Shown here piece by piece: positions 8,091 to 41,684 of a DNA stretch of 64,000 bases. The DNA comes from Fidelibacterota bacterium. GTDB lineage: Bacteria > Fidelibacterota > Fidelibacteria > Fidelibacterales > Fidelibacteraceae. The stretch is from assembly GCA_028716785.1 (NCBI GenBank), contig JAQUPD010000005.1, forward strand, positions 1-64,000. Direction: 5' to 3'. The notes under the pieces were generated by a model that did no database searches, was not told where the DNA came from, and saw nothing but the letters and a program-made list of their open reading frames with translations. The first letter of the stretch is position 1, and every line of letters begins with the position of its first letter. Both the position numbers and the translations under genes were made by a program.

Positions 8091-11000
8091 ATGAAATGTA
8101 AAAGTTGGAGATTTGCGTGCTTGCTTTTGTTTGGGATATTTCTTGTAGGAGAGCTTCACGCTGCATCAGGTAAGCTTTCGGGCAGGGTTTATGACAAGCA
8201 AACAGGTGAGCCATTACCGGGTGCCAATGTGATGATTACCCATCTTGAAATAAACGAGAAAATGGTTCCATTAGATGATATTATGGGAGCGGCATGCGGA
8301 GAAGATGGTTATTATTTTATTTTAAATATTCCTCCGGGAACGTACACCGTTTCAGCAAGTATGGTAGGCTATGCCGAGCTGAAAAAAGAAGGTGTTCGGG
8401 TCAATATTGACAGGACGATTACGGTGGATTTTCCCCTGGAACAAACCGTGCTGGAAATGCAATCTGTGACAGTGATGGCAGAGCGGGAAGTTATTCGTCA
8501 TGATGTTGCTTCCAGCCAGGAAATTATTAGTGCCGATCGTATTGATGCTGTGCCTGTCATGCGGATGGATGAATTTATTGGTACCATGAAAGGGATCGAA
8601 TTAGTAGCAAGTGATGAAGGAACAGGACTCAGTATTCGTGGCGGTGAGATTCGGGAGACAGATGTTCAAATTGATGGGATCAGTTCAAGAGATCCCCGGT
8701 CAGGGAATGCCTATCTTTCTATTAATGCCTCATCCGTGGAAGAAATGCAGGTGTTAACAGGTGGTTTTGAGGCAAAATATGGTGGTTTTCGAAGCGGACT
8801 TGTAAATATTGTTACAAAGGAAGGTTCCCGAGACCGCTATTCTTTTGCAGGAAATTTCAACCTTACACCCGCTGGACAAAAACGGTATTTCGGTCAAAAT
8901 CCCTGGGATGAGGATTTTATTATTTATCGGATTTTTGCCGATACAACAGAAAATGGGTGGGCTTATATAGGTACCAGAGGTGATACAACAGGTTTGGTTC
9001 CTCCTGAATTCCAAACATTTAGAGGATGGAATAATTCACGCGAAGGAAATGCAAACTATGAAATTATTGGCTTAAATAAAAAAAAGTTAACTCCAGAACA
9101 AAAACAGCGCTTGTGGCTTATTCAACATCCCACAAACGAACTATTCAATGAGCCTGATTTTTACTTGGAAGGGACACTGACTGGCCCTGTCCCCGGTGCT
9201 TGGATTCCTATCCTTGGCGATGTTTTAGAGCGTTCAACCTTTATGCTAGCAGGAAAATATGAGCAATCACAGTTTGCATACCCTATTGGTCCTCGCGATA
9301 CGTATGTCGATTGGAATACGCATTTAAAAATTACAACACGTTTAACCCAGAAGACAAAAGTCTCTGTAAATGCCATGTATGCCCGTGTAGAAACAAATAG
9401 TAGTAACAGGCCTTCTACTGCTGGCGGCGTGCTTCAAGATAATACTCTCCGCTATGGCTACCTGAATAACAATAATGAGTCCACAAACCAACAAGCTCGT
9501 ATTTTGGGAAGCAATTTGGAAAATATGTTTAACCGCAGTCGGTTGATGTATTTAGACCAAAATTGGTTTTTAGGGGGTGTAAAAATAAATCATACCCTTT
9601 CACCCCGTTCCTTTTTTACCCTTGAAGCACAAGTAACTTACCAAGATCATGATGTTTACAGTATGAGTGCAGATACAACAGATTCAGGTTCTTGGGTTGA
9701 ACTTGATTCGGGTTTGTATGTTTTAAATTTTCCCTCCATTGGGACACCCAATGCTTCAACAAATTGGGGTAAAGATATTACGGATTATTTTTGGATTTTT
9801 GGTGGATTGCAAAATGTGGATTCCTCCTATTCAATTAACACTTCTATAAAGGGAGACTATAAGGCTCAACTTGGCAGAAATCATGAGCTGGAAACAGGAT
9901 TTCTTTTCAACTATACGTATTCAAAAGTCTATGCAGGCACTTGGCTTCAATCCAAAAAGATGTACACGCCGGATACCTGGCAGTATTATACGATTACTCC
10001 CATCGAAGCGGCTGTATATATTCAGGATAAAATGGAATTTGAGGGATTGATTGCCATGTTTGGCCTTCGGGGAGATTATTTTAACCCTATGCGAAAATCT
10101 TATCAATTATCTCATCCTTTTGATCTCGATTATCCCGCATTTTATAATGTTGTGTATGAAAGTATCCCCGGCGAATGGGGCTCTTATGAACGGTGGAAGG
10201 TCTTTCGGGATATGTTGAAAGAGCCGCCAGGATGGCCAACAACAGATGTGAAATCTCAGTTTAAAGTATCGCCCCGTTTAGGTGTTTCTTATCCGATAGC
10301 TGTTGGCAGCAAGATGTATTTTAATTATGGACATTTTTATCAACGGCCTGCCTATTCGTTTCTCTATAATCAATCTATTGCTGTTGATTATGCTAATATT
10401 CCTTCGCCTGAATTAACTCTCGGAAAAACAGTTTCCTATGAGTTTGGCTATGAACAACAAATGTTCCGTCAATTCCTTTTCAATATTGTTCTTTATTATA
10501 AAGACGTGAAAAATGACCCCCTGCCACGAACGTATGTTAATTACTGGGAAGATTTTGTTATTACTAAATATTACCCTGATGCTTTTTCTGATGCGCGAGG
10601 AATTGAACTCCGTTTTGAAAAGAATTATGGAAAGTGGTTTACCTTTTGGGCAAATTTTGATTACATGCTCAAAAGTTGGGGACAAAGTGGCATGAGGTAT
10701 GTCTATGAAAATCAAGTCACTGCTCGTGAAGCAAGCCGATCAGCAAACATTTCTACCGTGGAATCATATCCTAAATCAGATATCAGCATGACCTTCCATT
10801 CACCTCAAACATTTGGTGTTCCCATGGCAGGTGTTTATCCCTTTGGTGGATGGCATTTGAATTTTCGGTGGAAATGGAGCGATGCTGGAGACGTTGTGAT
10901 TAAACAAGATATGGTAACGGGCGAACAGTTTAAAGCAGACGCTGTTGATTATACTAATCTGGATGCAAAAATTACAAAAGATATTTCTATCGGTGGTGTA

Positions 11001-11246
11001 ACTTGTAATTTTGGTGTGACAGTGTTTAATGTGTTGAATCAGAAACGTCTTTATATTAGTGGCATGAATAGTGCTCAATATTCCCGGTATCTTGAGTCAC
11101 TAAAATTCTCCTTTGAAGAAGGTGACGAACACGGGAATGATAAATGGGGAGAATGGAATAAAGAACATATTGACACGGGATGGTTTGAAGCTCCCATTTT
11201 CCTGAATCCTCGTAGGATTGTTGCATCATTATCATTCAGTTTTTAA
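8091..11246 (+). CDS. TonB-dependent outer-membrane receptor
   Basis: 1051 residues from the ATG at 8091, chosen because GGGAG lies 5 bases upstream and a clean signal peptide (MKCKSWRFACLLLFGIF...LHA) follows; an ATG at 8073 is also in frame. After the signal comes a carboxypeptidase-regulatory-like domain (about 28-115: SGRVYDKQTGEPLPGANV ... GYYFILNIPPGTYTV). Next are a plug domain (about 135-245: LSIRGGEIRETDVQIDGI ... FEAKYGGFRSGLVNIVT) and a large beta-barrel ending in the outer-membrane signature SLSFSF with terminal Phe. The N-terminal extension and size resemble SusC-type receptors. It is the first gene of an operon with a secreted FnIII protein, a PorV-like barrel and nagA, so the cargo is probably an amino-sugar oligomer (inference). 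Confidence 0.9.
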   Translation: MKCKSWRFACLLLFGIFLVGELHAASGKLSGRVYDKQTGEPLPGANVMITHLEINEKMVPLDDIMGAACGEDGYYFILNIPPGTYTVSASMVGYAELKKEGVRVNIDRTITVDFPLEQTVLEMQSVTVMAEREVIRHDVASSQEIISADRIDAVPVMRMDEFIGTMKGIELVASDEGTGLSIRGGEIRETDVQIDGISSRDPRSGNAYLSINASSVEEMQVLTGGFEAKYGGFRSGLVNIVTKEGSRDRYSFAGNFNLTPAGQKRYFGQNPWDEDFIIYRIFADTTENGWAYIGTRGDTTGLVPPEFQTFRGWNNSREGNANYEIIGLNKKKLTPEQKQRLWLIQHPTNELFNEPDFYLEGTLTGPVPGAWIPILGDVLERSTFMLAGKYEQSQFAYPIGPRDTYVDWNTHLKITTRLTQKTKVSVNAMYARVETNSSNRPSTAGGVLQDNTLRYGYLNNNNESTNQQARILGSNLENMFNRSRLMYLDQNWFLGGVKINHTLSPRSFFTLEAQVTYQDHDVYSMSADTTDSGSWVELDSGLYVLNFPSIGTPNASTNWGKDITDYFWIFGGLQNVDSSYSINTSIKGDYKAQLGRNHELETGFLFNYTYSKVYAGTWLQSKKMYTPDTWQYYTITPIEAAVYIQDKMEFEGLIAMFGLRGDYFNPMRKSYQLSHPFDLDYPAFYNVVYESIPGEWGSYERWKVFRDMLKEPPGWPTTDVKSQFKVSPRLGVSYPIAVGSKMYFNYGHFYQRPAYSFLYNQSIAVDYANIPSPELTLGKTVSYEFGYEQQMFRQFLFNIVLYYKDVKNDPLPRTYVNYWEDFVITKYYPDAFSDARGIELRFEKNYGKWFTFWANFDYMLKSWGQSGMRYVYENQVTAREASRSANISTVESYPKSDISMTFHSPQTFGVPMAGVYPFGGWHLNFRWKWSDAGDVVIKQDMVTGEQFKADAVDYTNLDAKITKDISIGGVTCNFGVTVFNVLNQKRLYISGMNSAQYSRYLESLKFSFEEGDEHGNDKWGEWNKEHIDTGWFEAPIFLNPRRIVASLSFSF

Positions 11247-11261
11247 ACGATTGAGGGTACT

Positions 11262-13385
11262 ATGAAATACGTATTTAAAAAACATTATTATTGCCTGTTT
11301 GTGTTACTTCTCGTATTGCTTTTTGCAGTGCCTGATTTAAATGCACAAAAAAATTATACAGGTCCGCCCATGTTTATTAATGTGAATGCCATTAATCTTA
11401 CCATGAAAAAAGTTAATGGTGAAGGACAATTTACTAATCAATACAGTTGGATGTTAACAGGTGATGCTCGCGAGCAAACGGAGGAGTGGTATTATCCTGC
11501 TGATAGATGGCATTCTCAAATGCTATATCAGATTTTTAATCCTGCTTGCCCTGATGATAATGGATTTATTGATCAGGAAAAAAAGCGCAAAATTATCCCG
11601 GATAAGTGTGTCAATCAGGGTAAAAACGATTATTCATGGGAACGGAGACGGTATCGAACGCCTTATATTACGGTTGATGGTGTTCGCCAAAACCAGGATT
11701 ATACCGGGGAGGTAGATCCCACATTGAAAGCAGATATTGTGGCAGAATGGGAAGATGTTCTAAGAGCGTATGGGATTCGAAGCAAGGTACAAATATATGC
11801 CTTCAGTAATCAAAATCATCAAGATTATATTATTTACAAGGCAACCTATAAATTTACCGGTGAAACTATGCGGCCTCTTGAAAATCCTGATACCTCAGAC
11901 TTTTTCCCTTCTCAAACCATGCGCCTGTGGTGGCCTATTTCTTTTAGCTTTGGACCAACGAAAGCAGGTGAATATATGGCACATTCCTATTTTGCCTATG
12001 AAGGGGAGGATGACCTGGATAGCTGGTTTGCAACACCTGTTACGCTTGCCTCGAATGCACCTCGGGATAGTCTAAAAATTGCCTACTATTGGGATTATAA
12101 GACACCCGGAGGCCGAGTCTATCCCAATGGAAGTAGTGATGATACCGGGGATCCCGATCGCCAGACGGGACATCTTCATTCACCTCAAATTCCCGGCTAT
12201 GCCCTGTTATATTCTTCAAAAAATACCTTTAACCTTACTAGTGATGATATTTCACAACCCTATGCCATTCCACATGCCGATATTGTAAATGATTTGTGGT
12301 CAAGAGCAGATGTGGGTGTAAGAGATACCTATATTGGTAACGATAATCGGGGAAGATTTCCACTGGATCCTATTACAGAAGGATTTATTACCGCCTCTGG
12401 AAAACAAAAGGGACCTATGCGCTTTATAACAATTGGTCCTTATGAATTAACGTTGGATCATGAACAGGGAATTCATGACTCAATTTGTGCTGTGTATGCA
12501 ATTGGTGTAGGATCAATTTCCTGGGATGTTGCCGATAGCATTGGTATGGCTTGGTTTGAAGGAAAAATAACCGATGCTGAAAAAGAAGCTGCAATCCTTA
12601 CCGGCAAAGATTCTCTCGCGAAAGTGATGGATAGGGCTTATTGGGCATATACGAATGGACTCAATGTCCCAGATCCGCCGCCTCCTCCTGACATTGAAGT
12701 TACTAGTGATGCTGATAGGATTATTGTTGAATGGTCTTATCCCGATGAGAGCTACTTCAAAGATCCCGATACAGGAGTTGATGACTGGTATGCCTGGCGT
12801 GTGTACCGAAAACGTGGAGAAGCAACTGTTGGTGCCCCCACTGAATTGATTTCCAAAGATCAGTGGGAACTAATACATGAAACAACAAATAGATATGAAA
12901 CACAATACATAGATAACGAGGTTATTCGGGGGGTCTCTTATTTTTATGCAGTAACAGCAATAGATGACGGCAGTCAGAATACTTTTGGACTTTATCCGGG
13001 TCAAAAGCTTGAAAGTCCTTACTTTGCAAATCGGTCCCAGATTCCTGCCAGACCCTTTCAAGCAGGTCTTGCAACTACAAAAGAAGTCCGCGTTGTTCCT
13101 AATCCCTATTCTATAAATGCTGGAATTTTGAATTTTCCTGGTGGTTCCAACCAACTTATGTTTGCCAGACTTCCTTATAAATGTACCTTAACGGTTTATA
13201 CAGAAAATGGCGATGAAGTAACGCGTTTTGATCATGTGGGAACCGATCAGGTTATTTGGGATCAAAGGACAAATACAAATCAGTATATTAGCACGGGTAT
13301 TTATATTCTTGCTGTCTGTGATGCTGAAGATGTCGAGGGAAATAAACTGGATAACCAGTATGTTAAATTTGTGGTTATCCGATAA
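11262..13385 (+). CDS. Large secreted FnIII protein with C-terminal sorting-type domain
   Basis: 707 residues, 15 bp after the TonB receptor and with a GAGGG ribosome site. It has a signal peptide (about 1-29, ending DLNAQ). A 430-residue region rich in Trp, Tyr and Asp follows that I do not recognise. A proline hinge (PDPPPPPDIEV) precedes a fibronectin type III-like module (about 465-590: DRIIVEWSYPDESY ... YFYAVTAIDDG). The C-terminus is a FlgD-Ig/type A sorting-like domain (about 600-707) beginning VRVVPNPYSINAG and ending STGIYILAVCD ... YVKFVVIR. Position and topology suggest a surface partner of the receptor, analogous in role but not in sequence to SusD. No catalytic motif is evident. 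Confidence 0.75.
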   Translation: MKYVFKKHYYCLFVLLLVLLFAVPDLNAQKNYTGPPMFINVNAINLTMKKVNGEGQFTNQYSWMLTGDAREQTEEWYYPADRWHSQMLYQIFNPACPDDNGFIDQEKKRKIIPDKCVNQGKNDYSWERRRYRTPYITVDGVRQNQDYTGEVDPTLKADIVAEWEDVLRAYGIRSKVQIYAFSNQNHQDYIIYKATYKFTGETMRPLENPDTSDFFPSQTMRLWWPISFSFGPTKAGEYMAHSYFAYEGEDDLDSWFATPVTLASNAPRDSLKIAYYWDYKTPGGRVYPNGSSDDTGDPDRQTGHLHSPQIPGYALLYSSKNTFNLTSDDISQPYAIPHADIVNDLWSRADVGVRDTYIGNDNRGRFPLDPITEGFITASGKQKGPMRFITIGPYELTLDHEQGIHDSICAVYAIGVGSISWDVADSIGMAWFEGKITDAEKEAAILTGKDSLAKVMDRAYWAYTNGLNVPDPPPPPDIEVTSDADRIIVEWSYPDESYFKDPDTGVDDWYAWRVYRKRGEATVGAPTELISKDQWELIHETTNRYETQYIDNEVIRGVSYFYAVTAIDDGSQNTFGLYPGQKLESPYFANRSQIPARPFQAGLATTKEVRVVPNPYSINAGILNFPGGSNQLMFARLPYKCTLTVYTENGDEVTRFDHVGTDQVIWDQRTNTNQYISTGIYILAVCDAEDVEGNKLDNQYVKFVVIR

Positions 13386-13400
13386 AGGACAGGTGAAACA

Positions 13401-14435
13401 ATGAAAAAAAGAAATGCAATATATCTGTGGTTCGTTAGCATCCTATTTTTCGGCGTTATAACTCCGTTAAGTGTAAAGGCTGTTGAGAAAAAAGCACAAG
13501 TTGGATTTCGTTTCCTTGAAAATCCTGTTTCTGCCGCTGCCCTTGGGCGTGGTGATATGGGTATTTTAGGACTTTCAAGCGCAGAAGGTGTCTATTCGAA
13601 TCCCTCTTCCATTGCCTGGATGTCTGGCCGTGCAGATGTTACCCTCTCTCAAACCCTGTGGATTGCAGATATAAAATACAATGCAATAAGTGGCGCCCTG
13701 AAGGCTCCCTATAATTTTATGTTTGGAGTGGATTATATGGCCATGAATTATGGGGATTTTTACGGGACACGCCGAGCCGATAATGACCAGGGATTTATTG
13801 AAACAGATATTTTTTCTCCTTCAGCTTGGGTTGCTGGAATAACAGTGTCGCAACGGGTGAGTGATCGCTTTTCGTATGGGGTACGCATTAAATATGCCTA
13901 CCATGATTATGGTGCTGCTCATATTGCAACAGAAGGATCAACATTAACCGATTCTTCTCTTGTTATTGTTGAAAAAAAATATACCCTCGGGGCTCCTGCT
14001 ATCGATATTGGAACAACCTATGCCTTTGGTTTTTATGGCATTCGTTTTGGCGCTGTTATCCAAAATTTTTCACAGGAACTTCAAATTGAACGAGAAAAAT
14101 TCCCCATGCCATACCGCGTTGGGTTTAGTGCAGATATGGATTTAATGACACTCATCGCACATGAAAAAGTAGATATGCATACATTGCGTTTGGGGATTGA
14201 AACTATTTATCCTCGCGATTTTCGAGAACGACTGAAAGTTGGTATGGAATATGCGCTGCAAGATATCTTTTTTGTTCGTACGGGCTATCTGATAAATTAC
14301 GACGAGCGCGGTTTTACTGCTGGGATTGGAATTCATACATCCTTAGGGAAAACCCGCTTTATCTTTGATTATGGCTTTCAGGAATTTGGAAATTTTGAAG
14401 GCGTTCATGTTTTTAGTGCTGGTTTTGGTTTTTAA
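13401..14435 (+). CDS. PorV/PorQ-family outer-membrane barrel
   Basis: 344 residues with a signal peptide (to about residue 27) and then the family N-terminus FRFLENPVSAAALGRGDMG ... AEGVYSNPSSIAWM. Amphipathic strands follow, ending in an aromatic VFSAGFGF. The family is FadL-like. In Bacteroidota PorV is the shuttle of the type IX secretion system that carries sorting-domain proteins to the cell surface. Here it follows by 15 bp a secreted protein with a sorting-like C-terminus, so a dedicated surface-delivery role is plausible. It has an AGGACAGG ribosome site and belongs to the same operon as the receptor and nagA. Confidence 0.8.
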   Translation: MKKRNAIYLWFVSILFFGVITPLSVKAVEKKAQVGFRFLENPVSAAALGRGDMGILGLSSAEGVYSNPSSIAWMSGRADVTLSQTLWIADIKYNAISGALKAPYNFMFGVDYMAMNYGDFYGTRRADNDQGFIETDIFSPSAWVAGITVSQRVSDRFSYGVRIKYAYHDYGAAHIATEGSTLTDSSLVIVEKKYTLGAPAIDIGTTYAFGFYGIRFGAVIQNFSQELQIEREKFPMPYRVGFSADMDLMTLIAHEKVDMHTLRLGIETIYPRDFRERLKVGMEYALQDIFFVRTGYLINYDERGFTAGIGIHTSLGKTRFIFDYGFQEFGNFEGVHVFSAGFGF

Positions 14436-14465
14436 CTATAATTCTCCGCTCAAAAAGGGGTGAAA

Positions 14466-15593
14466 ATGCTCATCCGCAATGTTCATCTGTTATCGAACAA
14501 AGACCTTGTTGATGTTTTTGTAGATTCAGGAAAGATTCTTCGCATTGAACAAGCGGACCCCTTCAAAAAAGGAGGGGTAGACGGAAAGGGACTTTTTCTG
14601 GTTTCAGGGTTTACAGATCTTCATGTCCATGGAGCAGGCGGGACAGATTTTAGCTGTGGCGATTCAGAAAAGATTATTCAAGCAGATCGTATGTTGACAC
14701 GCTTGGGGACAACGTCGTATCTTGCCACAACCTTTTATCTGCCCCATCAACCTAATACCCACCTTGAGGTCCTTCGGCAACTTTATGCATCTGGCCAATG
14801 TCTCGGCATGAAAGGCATTCACCTAGAAGGTCCCTTTATTTCACCCCAAAAAAGAGGTGGCATTTTACCAGATCGAATTTCTCCTTACAAAAAGGAAATT
14901 CTCGAGGATATCTTTCATGTGTGTGGTAATGCATTAAGAATGATGACACTTGCTCCTGAACAAGAACCAACGGGAGTATTAATCAACGCTTTAAAAACGA
15001 GAAATGTCATTCCATCTTTTGGACATAGTGATGCCACCGATAAGCAAACCCGTCAATCTCTTGACCAGGGGATAGAGCATGTAACACACCTTTGTAATGC
15101 TATGCGACCAATTCATCACCGAGATCCTGGACCAATCCCTGAAATTGTTGAATCCAATGTAATAGCACAAATAATTGCCGATGGTGCCCATTTAGTACCT
15201 CGTATGGTAAAGTTTTTGGCTTCTATTATGGGCGTTGATCGGTGTGTTTGTATTACCGATGGCATGCTGAGTACCGGGTTGCCAGATGGTGACTATCTCT
15301 ATCAAGGGAAGCCTTTCAAAGCAAAAAATGGAGAAGCCCGATATCTTCACAATAATGAACTCATAGGGACCTCATTAAGTGTACAACAAATTGCACAACG
15401 TTTTATGAACTTTACGACATGTTCCTTGGAAAAAGCTGTTAAAACAGTGACCGAAAATCCTTGCCGTGTTCTTGGAACACAGCCCTTGTATTCTACTATT
15501 CAGGAAGGAGCTATCGCCGATCTCTTGCTTATCGATAAGGCACTGAATCTTCATCGTGTATGGAAAAACGGCGAAGATATTTCGTCAGACTAA
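14466..15593 (+). CDS. nagA: N-acetylglucosamine-6-phosphate deacetylase
   Basis: Converts GlcNAc-6-phosphate to glucosamine-6-phosphate plus acetate in the cytoplasm. 375 residues of amidohydrolase fold. The metal and catalytic set is visible: DLHVHGAGG, HLEGPFIS (metal Glu), FGHSDA, HVTHLCNAM (His ligands) and the catalytic Asp in CITDGM. I prefer the ATG at 14466, 5 bases after AAAGGGG; a GTG at 14460 is in frame. It is the last gene of the TonB-receptor operon, which is the strongest evidence that this operon imports GlcNAc-containing glycans. No nagB follows. Confidence 0.93.
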   Translation: MLIRNVHLLSNKDLVDVFVDSGKILRIEQADPFKKGGVDGKGLFLVSGFTDLHVHGAGGTDFSCGDSEKIIQADRMLTRLGTTSYLATTFYLPHQPNTHLEVLRQLYASGQCLGMKGIHLEGPFISPQKRGGILPDRISPYKKEILEDIFHVCGNALRMMTLAPEQEPTGVLINALKTRNVIPSFGHSDATDKQTRQSLDQGIEHVTHLCNAMRPIHHRDPGPIPEIVESNVIAQIIADGAHLVPRMVKFLASIMGVDRCVCITDGMLSTGLPDGDYLYQGKPFKAKNGEARYLHNNELIGTSLSVQQIAQRFMNFTTCSLEKAVKTVTENPCRVLGTQPLYSTIQEGAIADLLLIDKALNLHRVWKNGEDISSD

Positions 15594-31283: not shown

Positions 31284-31334
31284 ATGGGATTTTTCCATTT
31301 TTTGGTACAATCCCATGAAGGGGGGGGGGTAATT
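31284..31334 (+). promoter_or_regulatory. Hairpin plus G10 tract at the ribosome site
   Basis: ATGGGATT (31284-31291) pairs with AATCCCAT (31309-31316). Immediately after comes a run of ten G (31320-31329) that serves as the Shine-Dalgarno sequence, five bases before the ATG at 31335. Such a G run is exceptional in this AT-rich DNA. Length changes by slipped-strand mispairing would alter ribosome-site spacing, so phase-variable expression of the secreted protein is plausible. Confidence 0.5.
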
Positions 31335-32822
31335 ATGAAACTAAAAAGCTCATCGATATTTCTTTCTTTTATCATTTTACTTTTTTCAACAACTAATACA
31401 CTTGCTCAAGTAGGGAATGAATTCCCAATTGAAATTAGTGATGAACAAACTTTTACAACGAGCTTTGCTGAGGATGCAGATAAATACTTAATTGTGATGC
31501 GAAGAGAAAGCGAAACATCAGGCGCCGATATCGTCGCTCAATTTCATTCTAAAACGGATCACTCGTTGATTGGCAATCCAATTGTTCTTGGTTCAACTGT
31601 CATTTCACCTGAAGATTTTGATCTCGGACTTATTCAAGCTGCTTTTGATGGAGAAAGATTTTTAGTTGTTTGGACTCATGGTGAAAATGGTGGAATTCAA
31701 TATAGGTTTATTCATGCTCAAACATATGAACTAAGTAATACTTTTTCTGATGCGACTTTACCTGCTTGTTTAAGTATCAATGCTTTGCATTTTAATCCCT
31801 CAGTAAATAAGTATTTACTTATTTCTTCAATTAGACAACCCTCGGGGCATTACATAATAAAAAATTTCATTCATAGTGATGGATTTTTAGAATCCAGTTC
31901 CCCAATCTTTTCATTTTCAACAAGAAAAGAGAATTGTACAGCATTTGGTGATTCGAAGTATTTGATTGTTTCAATTAAAGAAGCTGAAGATTATGATTAT
32001 GAAGTGTGGGGAAGATTTATTCATCAAGATGGTTCTAACATAGGTTCAGAATTTTTAATTGATGGTAGTGATTACCCGAGCGACAATCCAATTTTTGTTA
32101 TGTATGTTGATGGTAAATTCATTTGTATTTTTCCTGAGCAAGAATCAACAGGATGGAAATTATATGCAAGAATAGTAAACACTGACGGAACAGTTCAACC
32201 GGAACGATATGTGATTTCTAATTCTGGTTGGCTTTCACCTTTTATGATTTTAGGTGATAATTCAATGCTGGTTACAAGCACATCAGTAAATCCAAATCCT
32301 GATTCTTGTTTTGTTTTAGGAAAATTTTTCGATTTTAGTCTAAATCCTATAGGTGATGAGTTTATAATTTATGATCAATTAAATGGTAAGGTTCCTGTTA
32401 GTGGAGTTGGTTCTTATGGAAATAATAAATTCTATGTATATACTAATAGAGTGGATATTGCGTTTACACCGGATTCAAGTATATATTTTTCAAATGGGGA
32501 TGTGTATGGTGTCTCAGTTGATGCCCTAACTGGAGTTGATGATTATGTGATTATTCCTGAGAAAATTGAATTATATCAAAATTTCCCTAATCCATTTAAT
32601 CCAAGCACAAAAATAAGTTGGCAGTCGTCAGTAAACAGTCATCAAACTTTAAAGGTTTATGATGTACTTGGAAATGAAGTAGCTACATTAGTTGATGAAT
32701 ATCGTTTAGCTGGAAACTATGAAATTGATTTTGATGCTTCAAACCTTTCCTCCGGTATTTATTTCTATTGTTTGAAGACAGGAAATCTTATCGAAGCGAG
32801 AAAGATGATTTTATTTAAGTAG
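31335..32822 (+). CDS. Secreted protein with type A (T9SS-like) sorting domain
   Basis: 495 residues from the ATG at 31335, which starts a typical signal peptide (MKLKSSSIFLSFIILLF ... LAQ). The body (about 25-405) consists of repeated beta strands of the type 'YLIVMRRES', 'FLVVWTHGENGG' and 'FICIFPEQEST', suggesting a beta-propeller-like array of about 50-70-residue repeats. Residues from about 408 (IELYQNFPNPFNPSTKISW) to the end (SGIYFYCLKTGNLIEARKMI) form the secretion-system C-terminal sorting domain. Composition is more AT-rich than its neighbours, and it is flanked by relics and gene-free DNA. Recent acquisition or relocation is likely. The function is unknown, probably surface adhesion or binding. 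Confidence 0.82.
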   Translation: MKLKSSSIFLSFIILLFSTTNTLAQVGNEFPIEISDEQTFTTSFAEDADKYLIVMRRESETSGADIVAQFHSKTDHSLIGNPIVLGSTVISPEDFDLGLIQAAFDGERFLVVWTHGENGGIQYRFIHAQTYELSNTFSDATLPACLSINALHFNPSVNKYLLISSIRQPSGHYIIKNFIHSDGFLESSSPIFSFSTRKENCTAFGDSKYLIVSIKEAEDYDYEVWGRFIHQDGSNIGSEFLIDGSDYPSDNPIFVMYVDGKFICIFPEQESTGWKLYARIVNTDGTVQPERYVISNSGWLSPFMILGDNSMLVTSTSVNPNPDSCFVLGKFFDFSLNPIGDEFIIYDQLNGKVPVSGVGSYGNNKFYVYTNRVDIAFTPDSSIYFSNGDVYGVSVDALTGVDDYVIIPEKIELYQNFPNPFNPSTKISWQSSVNSHQTLKVYDVLGNEVATLVDEYRLAGNYEIDFDASNLSSGIYFYCLKTGNLIEARKMILFK

Positions 32823-38690: not shown

Positions 38691-41684
38691 GTGTCACAGA
38701 ATTTTTTTATACAACTCGTGCTGAAAAATCATCTCCGAGATGTTGCGGGAGAACAAGTAAAACAATCGGCAGCGCGATATCTTAACCTCGAGACAGGGAA
38801 GGTGAAATCATCAAAAGTTTTTACCCTAACCCTCGATATTTCTCTAGATGAAGTTCGTTTTTTTGCTGAAAATGTTCTCCGAGATCCCATTATACAGGAT
38901 GTTTATATTCAGTCCTTTTATCCCGCTAAAGAGTTTGCTCGAAAACTTTTTATCTCTAAGTTGCCCGGGGTGACAGATGATGAGGGAATCTCTGCTCAAA
39001 AAGCATTGGCCGATACCATGCATCGAGAATTTCCAACCCATATTCAGCAGATTTATACAGCAGATCTTTTTTATTTTGAAAATCCCCTGAAATCTCAGGA
39101 TTTAATCCGATTGGGAAAGGATCTTTTAGGAAATCCTTTGATTCACCACGTGGAAGCTGGCCCAACGAATGAACCCGTTACCTATATTCCTCGTGTGAAT
39201 CTTGAGACAAAGATAGCGATAAAAACTATTCCCCTTCAGTGTGATGATGAATCCCTTCTTAAATTGTCTGAGGATATGTTGCTCTCCTTAAACAAGGAAG
39301 AGATGAAGGCTATTCAGGCATATTATTTTCGGGAGGATGTTCAGGCTGCCAGAAAAAAAGCAGGTCTTGACATCAATCCTACGGATTGTGAATTGGAAAT
39401 TTTTGGTCAAACATGGTCTGAACACTGTAAGCATAAAGAATTCAATGCTGTTATTCATTATCATGATGAGGAAACGGGAAACGATGAAATGATCGACTCG
39501 CTTTTTAAAACATACATCTACAAATCGACAGATATTATCCAAAAGCGTTTTGAAAGAAAGGGGAACCCCTGGCTTTTAAAAGTTTTTTCTGATAACGCTG
39601 GTGTGGTGCGTATTAACGATGATCTTTGCTTTATTTGGAAAGTTGAAACCCACAATTCTCCCTCTGCTTTGGATCCCTATGGGGGCGCCCTTACCGGAAT
39701 TGTCGGTGTTAATCGGGATCTCCTTGGGACTGGCATTGGAGGGGCAAAACTCCTTTTTAATACGGATGTGCTCTGTTTTGGGAATCCTTATTTTACCGGC
39801 GAACTCTTGCCTGGTCAGCTTCATCCCCGACGGATTATGACAGGTGTTGTTGATGGAATTAAGGATGGTGGCAATAAGTCTGGCATTCCTACTCTTAATG
39901 GAGCCGTAATTTTTGACGATCGGTTTCAGGGTAAACCCCTTGTCTTTTGTGGCACCGGTGCCCTTATGCCCTTAAAATATGGCGATCGCCTTACTTGGAT
40001 TAAATCCATTGACCCGGGGGACAGAATTTTTATGGCTGGTGGACGTGTTGGGAAGGATGGAATCCATGGGGCAACCTTCTCTTCCCAAGAAATTGATGAA
40101 TCCTCTCCTCGATCGGCTGTCCAAATTGGATCTCCCATTACCCAAAAAAATTTAGCCGATTTTATGGTGGATGCCGCCCAAAAAGGACTTATAAAATGCT
40201 CAACGGATAATGGTGCAGGTGGACTCTCATCGTCTATTGGTGAACTTGCTCAACTCTCCGGAGGCGCAGAGGTCTACCTCCATAAAGTTCCTCTGAAATA
40301 TTCAGGCCTTCAACCCTGGGAAATTTTTCTCTCTGAATCCCAAGAACGAATGACACTGGTCATTGAACCCGATAAAACAGAAAAAGTATATGACCTTGCT
40401 AAATTGTATGAAGTAGAAGTGACCGATATTGGAGTCTTTACCGATTCTGGCATGTTAAAAGTTTTTTATGAAGAACACCTCGCAGCCCTTTTGAATTTGA
40501 ATTTTCTTCATAAGGGTGTGCCTCGAAAACATCTTGAAGCCGTATGGAAAAAATCTCCGGTTAGCGAACCCACCTTAAAAGAAAGTCCCGATCTCAAAAA
40601 AACGATTCTTTCTCTTTTAGGAAGCTTGAATATCTGTTCACGAGAAAGTATCATTCGTCGCTATGATCATGAAGTGAAGGGACGCACTGTGATAAAGCCC
40701 TTGATGGGAGAATTGGGCAACGGTCCACAAGATGCTGGCGTGATACGCCTTTCTTTTAATTCGTGGGAAGGGATTGCCGTATCCAATGGTATTATGCCGA
40801 AATTTGGAGATATCGATCCCTATGAAGCGTCGGCAGGAGCCTTTGATGAAGCGGTCCGCCAGATTATTTCTGTTGGTGGTCGCCTGCCAGACCCCGATGA
40901 TAATACCAGTCCTTTTTGGTCTGTCAATGATAATTTTTGCGTTCCCGATTCTGTCTATGATCCTCAAACGAATCCCGATGGAAAATTTAAATTGGCTCAA
41001 CTCGTCCGAATGAATCAAGCCCTCTATGATATGGCTCTTACCTTTAATATCCCCATGACATCGGGAAAAGACAGCATGAAAAATGATTTTCGCAAAGGAG
41101 ATATAAAAATTTCTGTGCCCCCCACTGTTTTATATTCCGTAACTGCTAAAATTGATGATATTCGAACTCTTACTACCAGCGATTTTAAAAATCCAGGAGA
41201 TGCCATCTATTTGGTTGGAGAAACAAAAGATGAATTGGGCGGCTCTGAATTCTATCGCCTGTTGGGATTTTTAGGCGCAAATGTTCCAAGGGTACGAAAA
41301 AAACATGCCCTGAATCTTTACCGAAAAATAGCATGTGCTCACCGAGAAGGATTCCTTGCATCTTCCCATGATCTCTCCGATGGAGGATTCGCCATTGCTC
41401 TGGCAGAATGCATTATGGGAGGGCATTTTGGGGGAATGGTCGATCTGGGATATGGTAATTTACCAATTTATGGTGAACTTTTTTCAGAGTCTCATTCACG
41501 CTTTGTTGTGACAGTTCCTAAAAAATTTCAGACAGCCTTTGAAAATCTTATGGGTCCAGATGCTCGGTTTTTAGGGAATGTCCTGGATGAACCCTCTTTA
41601 ATACTTGTCTATAAAGGCGAGAAACTGATAGAACTTTCTAAAAAAGAAATGCTTGAAACGTGGAGAAATGGCCTTGTTTTCTAA
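38691..41684 (+). CDS. purL: FGAM synthase, PurS-PurL fused large subunit
   Basis: 997 residues, GTG start after AAGGGAGA. The synthetase half of FGAR amidotransferase (purine step 4). Residues 1 to about 165 contain two PurS-like beta-alpha-beta repeats (first: LVLKNHLRDVAGEQVKQSA; second: KLFISKLPGVTDDEG ... HHVEAG). A linker helix with EIFGQTWSEHCKHKEF and the two PurL half-domains follow (KVETHNSPSALDPYGGA; STDNGAGGLSS; later TSGKDSMKND and SHDLSDGGFAIALAE). The glutaminase half is encoded separately by the overlapping purQ. Fused PurS duplication replaces the independent purS of Bacillus-type operons. Confidence 0.93.
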   Translation: MSQNFFIQLVLKNHLRDVAGEQVKQSAARYLNLETGKVKSSKVFTLTLDISLDEVRFFAENVLRDPIIQDVYIQSFYPAKEFARKLFISKLPGVTDDEGISAQKALADTMHREFPTHIQQIYTADLFYFENPLKSQDLIRLGKDLLGNPLIHHVEAGPTNEPVTYIPRVNLETKIAIKTIPLQCDDESLLKLSEDMLLSLNKEEMKAIQAYYFREDVQAARKKAGLDINPTDCELEIFGQTWSEHCKHKEFNAVIHYHDEETGNDEMIDSLFKTYIYKSTDIIQKRFERKGNPWLLKVFSDNAGVVRINDDLCFIWKVETHNSPSALDPYGGALTGIVGVNRDLLGTGIGGAKLLFNTDVLCFGNPYFTGELLPGQLHPRRIMTGVVDGIKDGGNKSGIPTLNGAVIFDDRFQGKPLVFCGTGALMPLKYGDRLTWIKSIDPGDRIFMAGGRVGKDGIHGATFSSQEIDESSPRSAVQIGSPITQKNLADFMVDAAQKGLIKCSTDNGAGGLSSSIGELAQLSGGAEVYLHKVPLKYSGLQPWEIFLSESQERMTLVIEPDKTEKVYDLAKLYEVEVTDIGVFTDSGMLKVFYEEHLAALLNLNFLHKGVPRKHLEAVWKKSPVSEPTLKESPDLKKTILSLLGSLNICSRESIIRRYDHEVKGRTVIKPLMGELGNGPQDAGVIRLSFNSWEGIAVSNGIMPKFGDIDPYEASAGAFDEAVRQIISVGGRLPDPDDNTSPFWSVNDNFCVPDSVYDPQTNPDGKFKLAQLVRMNQALYDMALTFNIPMTSGKDSMKNDFRKGDIKISVPPTVLYSVTAKIDDIRTLTTSDFKNPGDAIYLVGETKDELGGSEFYRLLGFLGANVPRVRKKHALNLYRKIACAHREGFLASSHDLSDGGFAIALAECIMGGHFGGMVDLGYGNLPIYGELFSESHSRFVVTVPKKFQTAFENLMGPDARFLGNVLDEPSLILVYKGEKLIELSKKEMLETWRNGLVF

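Follow-up and report, generated by a model that had tools for sequence, protein, structure and literature searches.

Whether a TonB-dependent receptor can work as a nutrient importer with a partner other than SusD is the question raised by three genes of a Fidelibacterota bacterium (GCA_028716785.1, contig JAQUPD010000005.1), which lie at positions 8,091 to 14,435 of the 64,000-nucleotide stretch of DNA analysed here (the window). A receptor of SusC size is followed by a secreted protein, called MID here, and by an outer-membrane barrel of the PorV/PorQ family. We propose, with a probability of about 0.6, that this trio is a Sus-like importer of amino-sugar oligosaccharides, whose capture subunit leaves the cell through the type IX secretion system (T9SS) and docks on a PorV-type barrel of its own.

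The open reading frames agree with the original prediction, made from the letters of the window, of a receptor, a 707-residue secreted protein and a PorV-type barrel separated by gaps of 15 bp each, all on the + strand. The TonB-dependent receptor (TBDR; 8073..11246, 1057 amino acids, aa) has an N-terminal CarboxypepD_reg domain (Pfam scan, E 3.6e-16), the carboxypeptidase-regulatory domain already predicted, and a Plug domain (E 2.8e-9); the ATG at 8091, seventh codon of the frame, suits a signal peptide better and is the likelier start. MID (11262..13385, 707 aa), the proposed capture protein, is composed of a signal peptide (residues ~1-29, a hydrophobic, signal-peptide-like N-terminus), an N-terminal domain (N-domain; ~32-470, positions 11355..12677), an FnIII domain (~474-600) and a PorZ-like T9SS C-terminal domain (CTD; ~604-707, positions 13071..13382). 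The barrel (13401..14435, 344 aa) is the proposed anchor or shuttle of MID. Since nagA begins 24 bp past the end of the barrel gene, the operon probably comprises four genes, the trio and nagA.

The trio is a conserved module that recurs across Neomarinimicrobiota and Ignavibacteriota, with a gene order far beyond chance. Matches to the MID family are present in 58 of 61 genomes (the host, a Neomarinimicrobiota genome of 2.2 Mb, and its relatives), and the full order TBDR-MID-PorV, scored with profiles of all three proteins, was found for 50 of 67 MID genes, most of the others being at the end of a contig or part of a re-ordered or tandem module. From a separate draw of 247 genomes in the phylum of an Ignavibacteria genome (G061), one locus was taken from each of 30 genomes (two of them, G061 and G067, known beforehand); 24 of these 30 loci were full trios. 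The original prediction had staked the unity of the three proteins on their conservation as a trio, and these counts uphold it. Close matches lie in Neomarinimicrobiota metagenome-assembled genomes; remoter orthologues (44-53%) belong to entries whose titles read Ignavibacteriales, Ignavibacteriae, Melioribacter or, loosely, 'Bacteroidetes'. One orthologous trio (L019) is in a metagenome-assembled genome bearing the name of Melioribacter roseus, a cultivated member of the Ignavibacteriota. The host itself carries approximately ten modules (the window module on contig C5, three on C1, and one each on C2, C3, C7, C8, C13 and C32), which include about 10 of its 18 TonB receptors, nearly all the SusC-sized receptors among them, and ten of the 11 host genes that pass the PorV-family cut-off.

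Other module architectures were also observed. Several Ignavibacteria trios have an extra protein of 470-515 aa with a T9SS-type tail between the receptor and MID (L017:8495-9988, L023:8366-9913, L024:6289-7695), and the C13 module of the host has a second barrel, a 516-aa FadL/Toluene_X-like protein, after its PorV-family gene (L103:7200-8750). Many proteins of 1000-1250 aa in the Ignavibacteria genomes G061-G070 share with MID only the FnIII domain and/or the PorZ-like CTD. In the host modules on C2 (L106:10518-13790) and C32 (L107:7111-14118), the CTD proteins (1090, 1030 and 1301 aa) show hardly any match to the MID N-domain, and one of them has a P-proprotein convertase domain; these C2 and C32 proteins suggest that capture domains may be exchangeable between modules.

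The receptor of the window is outside the SusC/RagA family, and MID is not a SusD. No match of the receptor to the SusC/RagA model (TIGR04056) was found at E<=1 in the NCBIfam scan; the 17 matches to this model in the host genome are all partial and far below cut-off (best 88.8 vs 368 bits), and three relatives in the same phylum have true SusC genes over cut-off. The Pfam scan gave no SusD_RagB (PF07980) match in MID, a lipobox-like motif is lacking in all 67 members of the MID family, and the AlphaFold model of MID is mainly beta (supersandwich, FnIII, CTD), unlike the alpha-helical TPR fold of SusD. The prediction of a Sus-like layout without SusD, having the second protein in the SusD position, was therefore borne out. 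There are no SusD genes in the host genome or the host family; SusD is over cut-off in 10 of 61 relatives within the phylum.

Searched alone, MID has no Pfam or NCBIfam match. The full protein was modelled confidently with AlphaFold from 60 family members (pLDDT 87.4, pTM 0.83); Foldseek with this model was dominated by FnIII matches, and so the N-domain was folded alone (residues 32-472, AF2, pLDDT 89.6, pTM 0.91). It is predicted to be a mutarotase-like beta-supersandwich plus linker helices, aligning with VIA Z ~17 (root mean square deviation 3.1-4.8 Å over 234-280 residues) to the supersandwich and linker helices that lie N-terminally in GH94 phosphorylases, GH65, GH15 glucoamylase and GH116. 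The catalytic (alpha/alpha)6 barrel of these enzymes does not follow the supersandwich in the MID model, where FnIII and the CTD come after the linker helices. The modelled fold suggests a sugar-binding role for this domain. The region of 430 residues that had been called novel is new by sequence, but its predicted fold is a known one.

The FnIII domain, also predicted originally, and the T9SS-type CTD were revealed by profile searches. The CTD family profile matches one PDB structure only, PorZ of Porphyromonas gingivalis (5m11, E 4.3e-4), and among 26 family members NCBIfam matches were obtained to PorZ (20), the type A sorting tail (14) and PorU (13). The likeness to PorZ is confined to the CTD: the full PorZ model (NF052228) is matched there only, far below its 260-bit cut-off, and no beta-propellers or sortase domain were matched in MID. 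In P. gingivalis, PorQ holds PorZ and PorV holds PorU at the surface (PMC5562754), and PorZ and PorU keep their CTDs, which have 96 and 108 residues vs 67-88 for cleaved CTDs (PMC11285876); the MID CTD has about 100. Two CTD classes coexist in the host, which encodes 11 strong PorZ-like CTD proteins, all within the ten TBDR/PorV-family modules, vs 51 other proteins with an ordinary type A sorting domain. The SprA translocon is encoded in 57 of the 61 genomes, including the host (SprA_N 3.4e-39, 2041-aa frame), and MID, with its putative signal peptide and T9SS CTD in a host having SprA, looks like a T9SS substrate. An ordinary T9SS cargo of 512 aa with a Por_Secre_tail is encoded elsewhere in the window (31284-32822), at a distance from any TBDR.

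The barrel belongs to the PorV family as predicted (NF033709 PorV_fam, 129.8 bits vs cut-off 90), and PorV/PorQ-family matches were found in all 36 trio barrels scanned; the best solved relative of the family profile is the PorV of Flavobacterium johnsoniae (6h3i, E 1.3e-30). The window barrel is below the cut-offs of the PorV/PorQ equivalogs NF033710 and NF033711 (48.7 vs 250 and 54.2 vs 220 bits), and an assignment of the trio barrels as PorV or PorQ proper is not supported. The best PorV-family match of the host genome (C10:18230-19489, L109; 277 bits, 453-aa frame) is outside the modules and is possibly a core T9SS protein. The CTD of MID being PorZ-like and not of the ordinary cargo type, a permanent anchor, as PorQ is for PorZ, is the better reading of the barrel, which is perhaps a shuttle too. 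The original prediction is refined here as well: its sorting-type C-terminus is a T9SS-type CTD, PorZ-like rather than of the cargo type, and its export shuttle would be mainly an anchor.

Partial correlations of pairwise distances over 39 dereplicated trios distinguish the partners of the MID domains. The N-domain co-varies with the TBDR (0.76, bootstrap 0.62 to 0.84) and the CTD with the PorV barrel (0.39, bootstrap 0.21 to 0.53); the remaining values were -0.03 for N-domain and barrel, 0.00 for FnIII and barrel, and 0.22 for CTD and TBDR. This pattern is suggestive of an N-domain seated on the receptor and a CTD seated on the barrel.

The genes surrounding the window trio point to amino sugars. 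Downstream, on the + strand, is NagA, N-acetylglucosamine-6-phosphate deacetylase (14460..15593; TIGR00221, 230.4 bits vs cut-off 225.65). Upstream are a GH9 glycoside hydrolase with a CelD_N Ig domain, possibly an exo-acting glucosaminidase/glucosidase (4838..6706, + strand; PF00759, 2.6e-65), and, on the - strand: a ROK-family sugar kinase (6759..7724; PF00480, 1.5e-33); another ROK kinase, candidate N-acetylglucosamine kinase (3568..4536; PF00480, 9.9e-46); an MFS transporter, candidate inner-membrane amino-sugar permease (2393..3571; PF07690, 5.3e-35); a SIS-domain sugar isomerase-like protein (1630..2388; NF002805, 224 bits, over cut-off); and an HGSNAT/NagX-like transmembrane protein, candidate periplasmic glucosamine N-acetyltransferase (392..1549; PF07786, 9.9e-8). 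At least one of these genes lies close to 16 of the 22 orthologous trios vs 1 of the 22 paralogous modules. Other bacteria need NagX, NagA and NagP/NagK together to use glucosamine (PMC9007349), and GH9 exo-glucosaminidases occur in Vibrio chitin loci (PMC6096475). Because of this clustering and these precedents, a chitin- or chitosan-type amino-sugar oligosaccharide is the most likely ligand of the window copy. No operator-like word above 10 bp is shared by the two divergent intergenic regions. Other modules have other neighbours: GHL10-type hydrolases on C1, and a T9SS cargo with a CBM56 match directly beside the PorV-family gene of the C2 module (L106:6284-9256), which hints at a beta-1,3-glucan module. 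The window also encodes a 997-aa protein in which PurS, FGAR-AT linker and AIRS domains are combined, an apparent PurS-PurL fusion (38691-41684).

Taken as an importer, the trio would work as follows. MID would enter the periplasm via Sec and be exported by the T9SS through its CTD, which would stay uncleaved and, by homology and co-variation, dock on the PorV/PorQ-type barrel of the trio as PorZ does on PorQ, so that MID would be held at the surface by barrel docking, without a lipid anchor. Its supersandwich would sit on the receptor and capture the ligand in the place of SusD, and the receptor would import it with TonB energy, as is established for its family. In the periplasm GH9 would trim the oligosaccharide and the NagX-like protein may re-acetylate free glucosamine; the MFS permease, the ROK kinases, NagA and possibly the SIS protein would feed the sugar into catabolism.

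Three alternatives concern the architecture of the trio. MID could be a T9SS cargo of the ordinary kind: the sortase would cleave off its CTD and the protein would be attached to lipopolysaccharide or released, with the barrel as a mere delivery shuttle and the trio loosely coupled; matches to the type A sorting model, too, were found in 19 of 60 MID members, P. gingivalis uses PorV as a shuttle (PMC5562754), and the type B cargoes of F. johnsoniae depend on cognate PorP/SprF shuttles (PMC12618676). We consider this unlikely, the MID CTDs being nearer to the uncleaved PorZ and in the length range of PorZ and PorU rather than of the cleaved CTDs, and 51 ordinary cargoes cannot each own a barrel where 11 PorV-family genes are over cut-off and ten of them are in modules. 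A receptor of the CarboxypepD type directly upstream of a secreted protein also recalls Myxococcus, where PopC secretion needs the TonB-dependent transporter Oar (PMC6434023), and the trio might be a secretion unit in which the receptor exports MID; the T9SS-type CTD of MID, the SprA of the host and the catabolic neighbourhood make this very improbable. The least probable alternative takes the barrel for a FadL-like channel, through which the module would import a hydrophobic or lipid-linked ligand delivered by MID to TBDR and barrel. The barrel family is indeed distantly FadL/TodX-like (Toluene_X 0.0035, TodX matches), but the scanned members are all of the PorV/PorQ family with a T9SS PorV as best solved relative, the barrel co-varies with the CTD and not with the N-domain, and the window locus is one of sugar catabolism.

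A fourth alternative disputes the ligand only: a Sus-like module may take up cello-oligosaccharides or cell-wall fragments, with NagA and the ROK kinases serving recycling. It is somewhat unlikely, since NagA, ROK, SIS, MFS and NagX-like genes recur beside this orthologue and not beside paralogous modules, and GH9 exo-glucosaminidases of chitin operons exist; it draws, nevertheless, on several of the observations that weigh against our own proposal of an amino-sugar importer. The PDB matches of the GH9 protein are cellulases and BoGH9A-like enzymes, with weaker matches to the exo-GH9 glucosaminidases 6gdt and 5dgq, and membership of the exo-glucosaminidase subgroup is not assignable by sequence; no chitinase was seen in the annotated parts of the window, in which no search was aimed at chitinases; the NagX model NF046061 gives 29 bits, far under its cut-off of 480; and 6 of the 22 orthologues have no amino-sugar genes nearby. 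On the side of MID, the N-domain is just 6-10% identical to the matched glycoside hydrolase domains, Foldseek with this domain gave low TM-scores with copper amine oxidases (another supersandwich fold) among the matches, and a shared supersandwich fold is by itself no demonstration of sugar binding. The window CTD alone has no family match, its PorZ likeness coming from the family profile; pairwise distances are non-independent, and the co-variation is thus support short of proof. Finally, in a second sample 27 of 60 genomes with the MID N-domain also have SusD genes (1-5 each), vs 29 expected, and mutual exclusion of MID and SusD was rejected. The MID N-domain is missing from all 59 SusD-rich genomes, those with at least six SusD genes, where 14.3 were expected to carry it; phylogeny may explain this. 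The notion of an alternative glycan-capture machine of non-Bacteroidota bacteria of the FCB group, put forward originally, keeps its sugar locus and loses exclusivity, and its 'non-Bacteroidota' label hinges on taxonomy, as GTDB may put Ignavibacteria inside Bacteroidota.

Beyond the window copy, we see roughly even odds that the modules are a widespread class of TonB uptake systems with a capture subunit unrelated to SusCD: a T9SS-exported supersandwich protein held permanently by a dedicated PorV/PorQ-like barrel via its uncleaved CTD, the T9SS thus building importers, and capture domains swapping on a constant chassis of FnIII, CTD and barrel. The families of the parts are known; no description of the combination was found in the open-access literature searched for links between PorV, TonB and Marinimicrobia/Ignavibacteria. 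If true, this would account for the capture of large nutrients by FCB bacteria that have few SusD genes or none, and PorV/PorQ-family proteins would gain a role beyond the T9SS core; in many genomes, the 'hypothetical', FnIII or sorting-domain proteins beside TonB receptors would become predicted subunits of importers. Two questions become testable: whether nutrient importers are built by the T9SS, and whether capture of the SusD type has more than one origin.

Compared with known systems, the trio is like SusCD (RagAB) in its TonB receptor of ~1000 aa with a CarboxypepD domain, the partner gene directly downstream, the many paralogous copies per genome and the adjoining glycan catabolism genes; it differs in a receptor outside the SusC/RagA family, a non-lipoprotein partner of predicted beta-supersandwich, FnIII and T9SS CTD, and the extra PorV-family barrel. 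In the trio, as in the PorZ-PorQ (PorU-PorV) attachment complex, a PorV/PorQ-family barrel would be coupled to a surface protein whose CTD is of the PorZ class, and PorZ, like MID, has been proposed to bind sugar; the trio, however, includes a TonB receptor and occurs many times over, every copy having its own barrel. The type B CTD cargoes of F. johnsoniae and their PorP/SprF shuttles likewise have a dedicated outer-membrane partner fixing the final location of a secreted protein, whereas the CTD of the trio is type A/PorZ-like, its partner is of the PorV/PorQ family and a TonB receptor is linked. The N-domains of GH94, GH65, GH15 and GH116 resemble that of MID in predicted fold, linker helices included, but MID has FnIII and the CTD in place of the (alpha/alpha)6 barrel and no family match by sequence. 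The nag/chitin loci (NagX, NagP, NagK, NagA) likely follow the same catabolic logic as the window locus, which differs from them in outer-membrane entry through the trio and in a SIS-type protein instead of a seen NagB.

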